The notes beneath the pieces are model-generated. The model saw only the letters and a list, made by a program, of their open reading frames with translations, was not told the origin of the DNA and ran no database searches. Shown here in pieces: positions 21,204-29,268 of a stretch of 64,000 bases of DNA (positions are counted from its first letter, which is position 1; every line of letters starts with the position of its first letter). The position numbers and the translations under genes are program-made. Location of the stretch: contig NZ_CP042997.1 of assembly GCF_008087625.1 (NCBI RefSeq), positions 9,424,001 to 9,488,000 on the forward strand, written 5' to 3'. Source of the DNA: Aquisphaera giovannonii. GTDB lineage: Bacteria; Planctomycetota; Planctomycetia; Isosphaerales; Isosphaeraceae.

Positions 21204-24741
<3,538 letters not shown>

Positions 24742-24844
24742 GGCGGTCACGTTGGAGCCCCTTTCTGCCGGGATGTTCGGTCGATCGGTCGGGAGCGGGC
24801 CCGGGCACCGCGGCCACTCGCATGCGACCCCCGCGGGCGGACCA

Positions 24845-24858
24845 GGCAACCGTTTGCG
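24845..24858. promoter_or_regulatory. Predicted LacI-family operator 1 (xylanase side)
   Basis: GGCAACCGTTTGCG carries the LacI/GalR-type palindromic core GCAA-n-CG-n-TTGC. It lies immediately downstream of the proposed -10 of the leftward xylanase promoter, overlapping or just after the expected transcription start, a position suited to repression. A second site with the same core lies 85 bp away on the regulator side. Confidence 0.65.
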
Positions 24859-24863
24859 TTGCG

Positions 24864-24891
24864 AGTGTAACTTGACATAGCGTCGTGTCAA
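24864..24891 (-). promoter_or_regulatory. Predicted sigma-70-type promoter of the xylanase gene
   Basis: On the minus strand, TTGACA (24891-24886) is followed after 16 bases by TACACT (24869-24864, four of six matches to TATAAT). The -35 is a perfect consensus. It overlaps the divergent promoter of the LacI-type gene. Confidence 0.5.
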
Positions 24892-24900
24892 CGAGATGAT
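24872..24900 (+). promoter_or_regulatory. Predicted sigma-70-type promoter of the LacI-type regulator gene
   Basis: TTGACA (24872-24877) is followed after 17 bases by GATGAT (24895-24900, four of six matches). The predicted start near 24907 leaves operator 2 just downstream, consistent with autorepression. Confidence 0.5.
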
Positions 24901-24929
24901 GCCCCGAGATTCCCGGGAAATCCGATCGC

Positions 24930-24943
24930 GGCAAACGCTTGCC
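24930..24943. promoter_or_regulatory. Predicted LacI-family operator 2 (regulator side)
   Basis: GGCAAACGCTTGCC has the core GCAA-n-CG-n-TTGC, the same as operator 1. It lies in the expected 5' leader of the regulator gene, about 30 bp after its -10 box. The centre-to-centre distance to operator 1 is 85 bp, about eight helical turns, which would allow looping. Confidence 0.65.
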
Positions 24944-24999: not shown

Positions 25000-26001
25000 G
25001 TGCGAAGCCGTCCGACCCTCTCCGACGTCGCCAGGGAGTGCGGGGTCACGCCCTCGACGGTGAGCCGGGTCCTCAACCGGAAGGCGAGCTTCTCCACGAG
25101 CGCGGCGGTCCGCCGGAAGATCGAGGACGCGGCCGAGCGGCTCGGCTACGTGCCGGACCTCGCGGCGCGGAGCCTGAACCAGCGGACGACGCGGATCATC
25201 GCCATGTTCGCCTCGCCCTCCACCCACCTCGCCGAGGGGATCTACGAGCCCCTCATCGAGGGGAGCCTGGAGGTCCTGCACGCGAGCGACTACGACGTCT
25301 TCTTCGACCTCAGCGCCGGGCGCAGGAACCGCGTCCCCTTCTGGCGGTTCGACGGGGCGCTGCTCCAGCAGAGCCCTCGGCCGGAGACCGTGGAGGAGCT
25401 GGACCTCCGCCGCGTCCCGTACGTCTGCGTGAACGAGGCGGTGGGCCGCCCGGTGGCCCAGGTGCTGGCCGACGACCGGATGGGGATGCGCCGGGCCGTC
25501 GAGCACCTGGCCCAGCTCGGCCACCGCCGGCTCGCCTACGCCAACGCGAGGGCGGCGTACCTCGCCCACTACTCGATCGCCGAGCGGCACGAGACGCTGC
25601 TGGCCGTGGCGGCCGAGCTCGGCCTGGAGGTCGTCCCGGGCCACGGCCCGCCCTTCGCCGACGGCGCGGGGTTCCTCCGCGGGGCGGTGATCGGCGGCCG
25701 GGCGACGGCCGTGATCGCCTACGACCACCACATCGCGGTGACGCTCTACGGCGTCGCCGAGGGGCTGGGCCTGCGGATCCCGCGCGACTTCAGCCTGATC
25801 GGCTTCAACGACGTCTTCCCGGCCCCCCTGCTGCCGACGCCGCTGACCGCGGTGAGCGTGCCGGCCCGGGAGATGGGCCGGTGCAGCGCCCGGCAATTGC
25901 TCAACAGCCTGGCGGCGGCGGAGCCGGCCGCGACGAGGGAGATCCGCCTGGCGGAGGACCTCGTCGTGCGCCGCTCGACGGCCCCGCCGCCCCCCGATTG
26001 A
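25000..26001 (+). CDS. LacI/GalR family transcriptional regulator of the xylan locus
   Basis: The 333-residue protein starts at GTG 25000, with GAAAGGG a few bases upstream. Residues 6-26 (TLSDVARECGVTPSTVSRVLN) form the canonical LacI helix-turn-helix, followed by the hinge helix region (IEDAAERLGYVPDLAARSLNQRTTRIIAMF). Residues 60-333 form the periplasmic-binding-protein-like sugar sensor (DDRMGMRRAVEHLAQLGHRRLAYAN ... TAVIAYDHHIAVTLYGVAEGLGLRIPRDFSLIGFNDVFPAPLLPTPLTAVSVPAREMG). It lies between the GH10 xylanase and the GH43 gene. With the operators at 24845 and 24930 this strongly suggests repression of the xylan genes and itself, relieved by a xylan-derived sugar; the effector is an inference. 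Confidence 0.93.
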   Translation: MRSRPTLSDVARECGVTPSTVSRVLNRKASFSTSAAVRRKIEDAAERLGYVPDLAARSLNQRTTRIIAMFASPSTHLAEGIYEPLIEGSLEVLHASDYDVFFDLSAGRRNRVPFWRFDGALLQQSPRPETVEELDLRRVPYVCVNEAVGRPVAQVLADDRMGMRRAVEHLAQLGHRRLAYANARAAYLAHYSIAERHETLLAVAAELGLEVVPGHGPPFADGAGFLRGAVIGGRATAVIAYDHHIAVTLYGVAEGLGLRIPRDFSLIGFNDVFPAPLLPTPLTAVSVPAREMGRCSARQLLNSLAAAEPAATREIRLAEDLVVRRSTAPPPPD

Positions 26002-26031
26002 CGAGGCCCAAGGCCGCACGGAGAAATGCAC

Positions 26032-29000
26032 ATGAAAACGTTCTTTCTGGCAATCCTGGCGGCCCTGGCGCCCGCGAGCCTCGCGGCCCAGGACAACGGC
26101 GACGGCACCTACACCAACCCGCCGCTGCACGCGGACTATCCGGACCCGGACATCATCCGCGTGGGGGACGACTTCTACTTCGCCTCGACGACCTTCGCGA
26201 ACTCGCCGGGGCTCGTCCTCCTGCACTCGAAGGACCTGGTGAACTGGGAGACCGTCGGCCACGTCATGGACCGGCTGGACGGCGACCCGAAGTACGACAT
26301 GAAGGGGGGCAACTCCTACCGCAACGGCGTCTTCGCCCCCTCGCTGCGGTACCACAAGGGGACCTTCCACGTCGCCGTGACGCCCAACGGCAAGCCGACG
26401 CGGATCTACCACGCCTCGGACATCCGCGGCCCCTGGAAGTGCGACGTCCTGAAGGAGTCGGCCTTCGACCCCGGCCTCCTCTTCGACGACGACGGCACGC
26501 CGTACCTCTTCACCTGCGGCGGGTGGGACGGCCACGTCACGCTGAAGACGCTGAGCCCCGCGCTGGACCGGGTCGTCGCCAGCCGCCAGGTCTTCTACGT
26601 CCGCGGGATCGAGGGGAGCAAGGCCTTCAAGATCGACGGCTGGTACTACCTGTTCAACTCCCTGCCGGGCCGGCTGGCGCTCATGTGCTCCCGGGCCCGG
26701 AAGCTCGACGGGCCGTGGGAGACGATCAAGGTCCTCGACGATCGCGCGGGGGGCCACCAGGGGGCCATCGTGGACCTGCCGGGCGGGGGCTGGTACGGCT
26801 TCGTGATGCGCGACAGCGGCCCGATCGGCCGCGTGACCAACATCTGCCCGATCACCTGGAAGGACGGGTGGCCGCTCTGGGGCGAGCCGGAGAAGCCCGG
26901 CCGGGTCCCGCCCCGGGCGAAGAAGCCGATCGCCGGCCAGCCCGAGATCGCCCGGCCGATCTCGACCGGCTTCGACGGCCCGAAGCTCCCGCTCGACTGG
27001 TCCTGGAACCACAACCCCGACGATTCTCGCTGGTCCCTATCCGAGCGTCCCGGCTTCCTCCGGCTGAGGCCGACGGCGGCCCCGGACCTCTGGCACGCGA
27101 GGAACTCGCTCACGCACAAGGGCTGGGGGCCCTCGAGCTGCGCCGTCGCGACCCTGGACGTCGCGCACCTGCGGCCGGGCGACGTGGCGGGGCTCGGCAT
27201 GATCGGCAAGGGGCTCGTCACGCTCGCCGTGCAGCGGTCGGCCGACGGCCCGGCGAAGCTCGTCCTGAGCACAGGCGTCGAGCACGGCGCCGAGGTCGCG
27301 CCGAAGGCCGAGGCGGAGATCGGCAAGGCCGACGTCGTCCACCTCGCCCTGCGGATGGACTTCACCGCGGCGAAGGGTCGATGCGGCTACAGCCTGGACG
27401 GCAAGGCGTTCACGGCGATCGGCGGCGAGTTCCCGCTCCTGTGGGACTGGAGGACCGGGACGTTCCAGGGCGAGCAGTACGCGGTCTTCTGCTACAACCC
27501 GAAGCCGGGCGACGGATACCTGGACGTGGACGGCATCCGCTTCGAGTCGCCCGAGTTGAAGGAGCCGGCCGCGCGGCAGGCGGCCCGGCCGGCCTCCGAG
27601 CCGGACAGCGCCAAATCGGTGGCCTTCGAGTCGTTCTCCTACTCGGGGACCGACCCGATGTCGGCGAAGGTCGGGAGCGATTCCTACCTGAACCCGATCC
27701 TCGCGGGCTTCTATCCGGACCCGAGCGTCTGCCGCGTCGGCGACGACTTCTACCTGGTGAACTCGAGCTTCCTCTACTTCCCCGGCCTGCCGGTCTTCCA
27801 CAGCCGCGACCTGGTCCACTGGGAGCAGGTCGGCAACGCCATCCAGAGGCCCTCGCAGGCCCCGGCGCTGAGGGTCGGGAACGTCTCGGGCGGGATGTTC
27901 GCGCCGACGATCCGCCACCACGGCGGCAGGTTCCACGTGATCTGCACGCAGGTCGGCCCGCAGGGCGGCAACTTCGTCGTCTCGGCGGAGCGTCCGGAGG
28001 GGCCGTGGTCCGAGCCGACCTGGCTCCGGGGCGTCCCGGGCATCGACCCGTCGCTCTTCTTCGACGAGGGGCACGCCTACGTCGTCTTCAACGCCGAGGC
28101 CCCCGACAAGAAGCCGCTGTACGAGGGCCACCGGGCCCTCTGGCTCCAGCAGGTGGACCTCGACGGCGGCAAGCTCATCGGGCCCCGCAAGCTGCTCGTC
28201 AACGGGGGCACGGACCTTTCGAAGAAGCCGATCTGGATCGAGGGCCCGCACCTGCTGAGGAAGGACGGCTGGTACATCCTCATCGCCGCGGAAGGGGGCA
28301 CGGGCCCGGCGCACTCGGAGGTCGTCTTCCGCAGCCGCGACCTCGCCGGGCCGTACGTGCCTTACGAGAAGAACCCGATCCTCACCCAGCGCGACCTGCC
28401 CCGCGGCCGGCCCGACCCGATCACGTGCACCGGGCATGCGGACCTCGTCGAGCTGCCCAACGGCGACTGGTGGGCCGTCTTCCTCGGCTGCCGTCCCGAC
28501 GCGGCCGGCCACGGCCTCCTCGGCCGCGAGACGTTCCTCCTGCCCGTGAAGTGGGCGGACGGCTGGCCGGCCATCCTCGAGCACGGCGCGGAGGTCCCTC
28601 GCGTCGTGAAGCGGCCCGCGCTCGCGGAGTCCACGCCGCCGGGCTGGCGCCCGATGACGGGGGACTTCACCGCGACCGACGACTTCGACGGCAAGGCGCC
28701 CGGCCTCGGCTGGATGGGGCTGAGGACGCCGACGTCCTCGTGGTGGAGCCTCGACGCGAAGTCGGGCGAGTTCCGCCTCATGCCCCGGAAGGCGAGGCTG
28801 ACGACCAGGGCGGAGGATCCCTCCTTCCTCTGCCGGAGGTTGCAGCACGCCTCGTACACGGCGAGGACGGCGATCCGCCTCGACGCCGGGACGCCGGACG
28901 GCGACGCCGGGCTGGTCGTCTTCCAGGACGAGGGGCATCACCTCCTCGCCGGCGTCCGGGTCCGCGGGGGCCAGGCGAAGGAGGCCTTCGTCGAGCGCGT

Positions 29001-29268
29001 CGCGGCGAGGGGCCGGTTCTCCCGGCAGGCGCCCGAGCCGGACGTCCTCTCCGCGGCCCCCCTGCCCGGCGGCTGCCGGCGGCTGGAGATCGAGGCGAGG
29101 GGCGAGGGCACGTCCCTGACCTTCCGCTATCGGGCCGATGGCGGCGACTGGTCCCCGCTCGGGGACCGCGTGGATGCGACCTTCCTGGACGGCCAGGCCG
29201 CGGGGGGCTTCACGGGCGTCTGCCTCGGCGTCCACGCCCGGACCCCGGCCGATGGGCCGGCCCGCTGA
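26032..29268 (+). CDS. Secreted tandem GH43 beta-xylosidase/alpha-L-arabinofuranosidase (GH43-C2-GH43-C2)
   Basis: I start at ATG 26032 (MKTFFLAILAALAPASLAAQ, a signal peptide) because GGAG lies eight bases upstream; ATG 26026 is too close to it. The 1078-residue product has two full GH43 five-bladed propellers. The first (about 20-300) opens with HADYPDPDIIRVGDDFYF (catalytic base Asp) and has GIEGSKAFKIDGWYYLF (catalytic Glu). The second (about 550-850) has AGFYPDPSVCRVGDDFYLVNSSF and IEGPHLLRKDGWYILIAAEGGTG. Each is followed by a concanavalin-like GH43 C2 beta-sandwich (about 310-535 and 880-1070). Such enzymes release xylose or arabinose from xylo-oligosaccharides. It follows the regulator by 30 bp and is probably cotranscribed. 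Two catalytic modules in one chain is unusual and suggests complementary specificities. Confidence 0.92.
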   Translation: MKTFFLAILAALAPASLAAQDNGDGTYTNPPLHADYPDPDIIRVGDDFYFASTTFANSPGLVLLHSKDLVNWETVGHVMDRLDGDPKYDMKGGNSYRNGVFAPSLRYHKGTFHVAVTPNGKPTRIYHASDIRGPWKCDVLKESAFDPGLLFDDDGTPYLFTCGGWDGHVTLKTLSPALDRVVASRQVFYVRGIEGSKAFKIDGWYYLFNSLPGRLALMCSRARKLDGPWETIKVLDDRAGGHQGAIVDLPGGGWYGFVMRDSGPIGRVTNICPITWKDGWPLWGEPEKPGRVPPRAKKPIAGQPEIARPISTGFDGPKLPLDWSWNHNPDDSRWSLSERPGFLRLRPTAAPDLWHARNSLTHKGWGPSSCAVATLDVAHLRPGDVAGLGMIGKGLVTLAVQRSADGPAKLVLSTGVEHGAEVAPKAEAEIGKADVVHLALRMDFTAAKGRCGYSLDGKAFTAIGGEFPLLWDWRTGTFQGEQYAVFCYNPKPGDGYLDVDGIRFESPELKEPAARQAARPASEPDSAKSVAFESFSYSGTDPMSAKVGSDSYLNPILAGFYPDPSVCRVGDDFYLVNSSFLYFPGLPVFHSRDLVHWEQVGNAIQRPSQAPALRVGNVSGGMFAPTIRHHGGRFHVICTQVGPQGGNFVVSAERPEGPWSEPTWLRGVPGIDPSLFFDEGHAYVVFNAEAPDKKPLYEGHRALWLQQVDLDGGKLIGPRKLLVNGGTDLSKKPIWIEGPHLLRKDGWYILIAAEGGTGPAHSEVVFRSRDLAGPYVPYEKNPILTQRDLPRGRPDPITCTGHADLVELPNGDWWAVFLGCRPDAAGHGLLGRETFLLPVKWADGWPAILEHGAEVPRVVKRPALAESTPPGWRPMTGDFTATDDFDGKAPGLGWMGLRTPTSSWWSLDAKSGEFRLMPRKARLTTRAEDPSFLCRRLQHASYTARTAIRLDAGTPDGDAGLVVFQDEGHHLLAGVRVRGGQAKEAFVERVAARGRFSRQAPEPDVLSAAPLPGGCRRLEIEARGEGTSLTFRYRADGGDWSPLGDRVDATFLDGQAAGGFTGVCLGVHARTPADGPAR

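Follow-up and report, generated by a model that had tools for sequence, protein, structure and literature searches.

How is the expression of two oppositely oriented sets of xylan genes coordinated in the planctomycete Aquisphaera giovannonii? The window, i.e. the whole stretch of 64,000 nucleotides that was analysed (contig NZ_CP042997.1, positions 9,424,001 to 9,488,000), contains a GH10 xylanase gene and a LacI-family regulator gene that point away from each other. We consider it likely, with a probability of roughly 75%, that the DNA between them is the control region of a xylan divergon, on which the local LacI-family repressor would act through two operators, probably with formation of a loop, and would respond to a xylose-type inducer.

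Genes and predicted overlapping promoters of the divergon

The features of the region are as follows.

21204-23480, minus strand: esterase gene (feruloyl-esterase-like), 3' of the xylanase gene and the probable second gene of the xylanase operon
23542-24750, minus strand: GH10 xylanase gene (PF00331, 1.7e-94), 402 aa from the probable GTG at 24750
24845-24858, no strand: operator 1, GGCAACCGTTTGCG, from the sequence and from matching sites at five other loci
24864-24891, minus strand: leftward xylanase promoter, TTGACA 24891-24886, 16 bp, TACACT 24869-24864, from a promoter scan
24872-24900, plus strand: rightward promoter, TTGACA 24872-24877, 17 bp, GATGAT 24895-24900, from a promoter scan
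24930-24943, no strand: operator 2, GGCAAACGCTTGCC, from the sequence and from matches in A. insulae
25000-26001, plus strand: LacI-family regulator gene, 333 aa (PF00356, 3.5e-13; PF13377, 2.5e-23)
26026-29268, plus strand: GH43 enzyme gene, with two matched GH43 stretches plus GH43_C2, the probable second gene of the regulator operon

GTG 24750 was chosen as the probable xylanase start from a comparison with A. insulae, which keeps both a GTG and the conserved AGAAAGGGG that precedes it; the first ATG lies at 24741. The neighboring esterase resembles the esterase portion of bifunctional xylanase/feruloyl esterases. Its order relative to GH10 is the same in A. insulae (L052), and an esterase gene also adjoins GH10 in the relatives G040 and G042. 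On the other side, the regulator has an intact LacI HTH (PF00356, residues 6-53) and an intact sugar-binding domain (PF13377, residues 167-327), both scoring above cut-off. The GH43 gene, which encodes a single 1080-aa protein, begins 24 bp after the regulator stop codon. Given this short gap and the likely co-transcription of the two genes, operator 2 would govern GH43 besides the regulator. With GH43 following the regulator and the esterase following the xylanase, the operators would thus govern a xylan divergon.

The scanner picked up both sigma-70-type promoters independently, where shuffled sequences were expected to give none, and thereby agrees with the earlier note, which had described head-to-head TTGACA boxes with usable -10 boxes at 16- and 17-bp spacers. 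The two promoters overlap, each -35 box lying within the spacer of the other. Because of this overlap they probably exclude each other, so that one polymerase at a time would occupy the region. Together, the -35 boxes make up an inverted repeat of 20 bp, TTGACA-N8-TGTCAA (24872-24891), which recurs with an identical 8-bp gap in G040. Placed 7 bp beyond the -10 boxes, the predicted transcription starts fall near 24857 (minus strand) and 24907 (plus strand).

A rare pair of probable LacI-type operators

Both operator sequences were found where the earlier note had located them, 85 bp apart from centre to centre. They share the core GCAANCGNTTGC, a palindrome with a central CG. The cores had been described as identical, which holds for GCAANCGNTTGC itself but not for its N positions, which differ. 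Site 1 is symmetric in 5 of 7 pairs, with the outermost pair mismatched, and site 2 in 6 of 7. Operator 1 had been assigned to the xylanase start region; it does cover the predicted transcription start of the xylanase and is centred around -55 relative to the rightward promoter, but the likely GTG lies 94 bp downstream of it. Operator 2 falls within the regulator leader as proposed, at about +30 from the predicted rightward start and 56 bp ahead of the GTG at 25000. With their CG centres and these distances to the start codons, both sites conform to the LacI-family norm of an even, CG-centred palindrome located mostly 30-140 bp before the start codon (PMC4052901).

Could both sites be chance palindromes? 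The core is short, and degenerate versions of it arise randomly in a 10 Mb genome. However, a scan for the core, as the earlier note had called for, returned 4 copies in the 10.5 Mb window genome, 2 of which are the window operators, and GGCAANCGNTTGCC has a single exact match in the genome, namely operator 2. When the 249-bp intergenic stretch was shuffled 20,000 times with dinucleotides preserved, GCAANCGNTTGC appeared once in 10 of the shuffles and twice in none. The geometry is, moreover, conserved elsewhere (see below). A chance origin is therefore extremely improbable, and conservation effectively refutes it.

Conservation of the operator-promoter geometry in relatives

Regulators with 72-73% identity are encoded in A. 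insulae, G040 and G042, as well as by a paralog in the window genome (C1:8253193). PF00356 proteins number two in the window genome (the local regulator and the 72% paralog), one in A. insulae, one in G042 and two in G040; the counts refer to the assemblies at hand, which for A. insulae and some relatives are drafts. A. insulae has a GH10/GH43 divergon (L052 7518-7703, G002:C25) with both operators 85 bp apart, and the regulator gene is absent between these operators and GH43. The single LacI-family gene detected in its draft assembly lies on another contig, has an operator pair of its own, and is followed by a xylose isomerase gene. The encoded protein is 86% identical to the paralog of the window genome, which likewise adjoins a xylose isomerase (TIGR02630, 703 bits, downstream of both regulators). 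At these two loci (L039 5048-7697 and L041 5218-7812), the paralogous regulator precedes the xylose isomerase, and the operator pair, 84 bp apart, surrounds the promoter. Both genomes carry a second xylose isomerase copy elsewhere.

The site spacing is 85 bp in the window, 85 bp at the A. insulae xylan divergon, 86 bp in G040, and 84 bp at both the paralog and the A. insulae regulator-xylA locus. This corresponds to 8.0-8.2 helical turns at all five loci, placing the operators in helical phase on either side of the promoters, as is characteristic of GalR-type pairs. These five loci, drawn from three genomes and partly sharing descent, have in common the layout site, 13-14 bp, -35, 17-18 bp, -10, 27-29 bp, site. 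The rightward boxes are identical at the A. insulae xylan divergon (TTGACA-17-GATGAT) and related at the other loci; the leftward boxes (TTGACA-16-TACACT) are also present in G040, and G042 reads TTGACA-16-TAGACT. Sites, promoter boxes, gene order and the fixed geometry in relatives are thus visible in the DNA itself. Together with the adjoining LacI-family gene, the recurring layout strongly supports the assignment, already made in the earlier note, of these sites as probable LacI-type operators over divergent promoters.

Conservation of the second site is less uniform. In G040 it is degenerate (GGCGAACGCTCGCC), scoring 8.5 bits vs 15.8-22.3 bits for the others on a matrix built from these same operator sites, and G042 keeps operator 1 and the xylanase promoter but not operator 2. 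The pair is therefore not indispensable everywhere. Sites at the xylan and xylose isomerase loci deviate from the consensus GGYAANYGNTTRCC at no more than one position. All exact GGYAANYGNTTRCC matches in A. insulae (4 in 10 Mb) belong to its two pairs, and a search for the exact pair among 398 genomes of the class returned A. insulae only, at both loci; the two pairs of the window genome, each with one departure from the exact pattern, were not expected among the matches. The flanks of more distant regulators (29-35% identity) contained no comparably good sites. The regulator gene tree does not fix the branching order among the window regulator, those of G040 and G042, and the paralog pair, so the lack of a local copy in A. 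insulae is compatible with loss or with never having had one.

Proposed switch and cooperation between the operators

The paired sites very probably form a genuine switch of a well-known kind; the control region itself appears to be real and conserved, with an unusually clean two-site geometry. In our best reading, repression would be exerted by the local regulator or by its 72% paralog and relieved by a xylose-type sugar. When the sugar is absent, the repressor encoded by the first rightward gene would bind both operators. Bound at operator 1, it would cover the start of the leftward GH10-esterase transcript; bound at operator 2, it would limit the regulator-GH43 transcript and, in this way, itself. 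With eight helical turns between the operators and both promoters enclosed by them, dimers bound at the two sites would probably cooperate; a small GalR-like loop silencing both promoters is the most likely way. A xylose-type sugar would then free the repressor. The nature of the target genes, GH10, GH43 and esterase, suggests that the inducer is probably xylose or a xylo-oligosaccharide, and the xylose isomerase beside both the paralog and the A. insulae regulator points to xylose.

Looping between the operators is plausible, as it fits the eight-turn spacing and the survival of the pair where no divergent gene exists. The gene upstream of the regulator at the xylose isomerase loci belongs to the carboxymuconolactone decarboxylase family and is co-oriented with the regulator. 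Site 1 there faces no divergent gene that it could control, yet its offset is kept. This favours cooperation between the sites over a model with one site per promoter and, along with the regulator-free xylan pair of A. insulae, is the weightiest observation of the comparison. Aligned to full-length LacI (1lbg, 360 aa), the window regulator matches up to its residue 330 of 333, and the alignment ends at LacI residue 332, short of the tetramerisation helix. LacI-type tetramers are therefore not expected, and any loop would have to rely on contacts between dimers as in GalR, perhaps aided by HU.

Alternatively, the operators could be real but act independently, operator 1 blocking the xylanase start and operator 2 forming a roadblock to the regulator-GH43 transcript, with no loop. 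Each site is indeed placed where one bound dimer would block its own promoter, operator 1 stands alone in G042, and the missing tetramerisation helix fits dimers acting separately. It is harder to reconcile with the xylose isomerase loci, where site 1 is retained 84 bp from site 2 and at the same -35 offset with no divergent promoter, and with a spacing that remains in helical phase. We thus regard independent action as rather unlikely and favour cooperation between the two bound dimers.

CcpA activates from some of its sites, and operator 1 might similarly activate the rightward promoter in addition to repressing the xylanase. Its position near -55 is kept at all five loci, and E. coli GalR bound at -60.5 activates one gal promoter while repressing the other (PMC4693257). 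The second site at about +30 nevertheless suggests repression, and there is no sign of a co-activating condition, which makes an activating role quite improbable. We tentatively suggest that the two-operator bracket of 84-86 bp, with mutually exclusive overlapping promoters inside and an eight-turn loop formed by a LacI-family protein that has no tetramer helix, may be a separately evolving module of the Isosphaeraceae. Such a module would persist at the A. insulae xylan divergon, where the regulator gene is lacking, and be reused at the regulator-xylose isomerase promoter.

A probable single repressor at two loci

The A. insulae xylan pair has no local regulator, and the sole LacI-family gene lies elsewhere, which suggests that a single repressor probably acts on both loci in trans. 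The retention of the GH10/GH43 pair in a genome with one LacI-family protein also supports the proposal of the earlier note that one regulator could control both directions. Does the paralog C1:8253193 also bind the window operators, by itself or jointly with the local protein, giving one regulon of xylan and xylose genes with two interchangeable repressors? The A. insulae protein, the sole candidate for the xylan pair there, is the close counterpart of this paralog, and the sites of both loci match a common consensus. On the other hand, the local sites read GGCAA vs GGTAA at the paralog, and identity over the first 62 aligned columns, where the HTH lies, is 68%, so preference may have diverged somewhat. 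Sharing of the sites by the paralog is thus possible, although we would not assume it. Neither this potential sharing nor the likely control of GH43 by operator 2 is considered in the earlier note.

Comparison with known systems

Two LacI-family operators at a similarly short spacing surround the promoter in E. coli lac (O1-O3). E. coli LacI is tetrameric via its C-terminal helix, whereas the window regulator has no such helix. The closer parallel is E. coli gal, in which two operators in helical phase bracket the promoters and dimers of GalR, a regulator of the same family, form a loop that represses both promoters (PMC4693257). There, the operators OE and OI are 113 bp apart, equal to 11 turns, and half-turn changes abolish repression (PMC4693257). 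Unlike in gal, the window promoters are divergent with good -35 boxes, the spacing is 84-86 bp, and operator 2 lies in an untranslated leader, whereas OI is inside galE.

In terms of targets, the window resembles the system of XynR (Athe_0566), a LacI-family xylan regulator of Caldicellulosiruptorales. Its sites, e.g. gtaaacgcttac, were confirmed by binding assays in Anaerocellum bescii (PMC12285236). The likeness is one of family, kind of target gene and a closely similar operator core. XynR belongs to a different phylum, and no paired-site geometry appears in the passages considered here (PMC12285236). Local repressors that also control their own genes are the rule in this family: autoregulation applies to more than three-quarters of local LacI-family regulators, and about 20% of LacI-family operons have several sites (PMC4052901). 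The same 2014 comparative study reports inter-site peaks at 13, 22 and 32 bp, vs 84-86 bp here, and does not mention Planctomycetes (PMC4052901). LacI goes unmentioned in a paper that compares four Isosphaeraceae (PMC5352709), and our literature search found no paper combining planctomycete, LacI family, binding motif and regulon. The present analysis therefore offers a concrete operator consensus and a small predicted regulon (xylan divergon and regulator-xylose isomerase) for a group in which gene control is little known. The A. insulae arrangement provides a natural test of one repressor at two loci, and the window promoter could become a sugar-inducible tool for Planctomycetes.

Other matches to the operator motif

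Several motif matches were set aside. The match at C1:3358483 is inside a short predicted frame whose surroundings include a phage-capsid gene, that at C1:8626168 has a low score and lies between alpha/beta hydrolase and GH77 genes, and that at C1:7887164 is within a DUF1559 gene. In each of the two Aquisphaera genomes, the GGTAATTGATTAGC matches lie on either side of IS66-type transposase genes and resemble the ends of such elements. Two of these genes (L054 3337-4812 and L055 5137-6629) are bordered by inverted GGTAATTGATTAGC-like ends, which a scan can mistake for the operator. In G042, an operator-like sequence, GGTAAGGGCTTGCC (L063 1419-1432), lies 76 bp ahead of a xylose isomerase ATG; having no central CG, it is listed as a tentative site.
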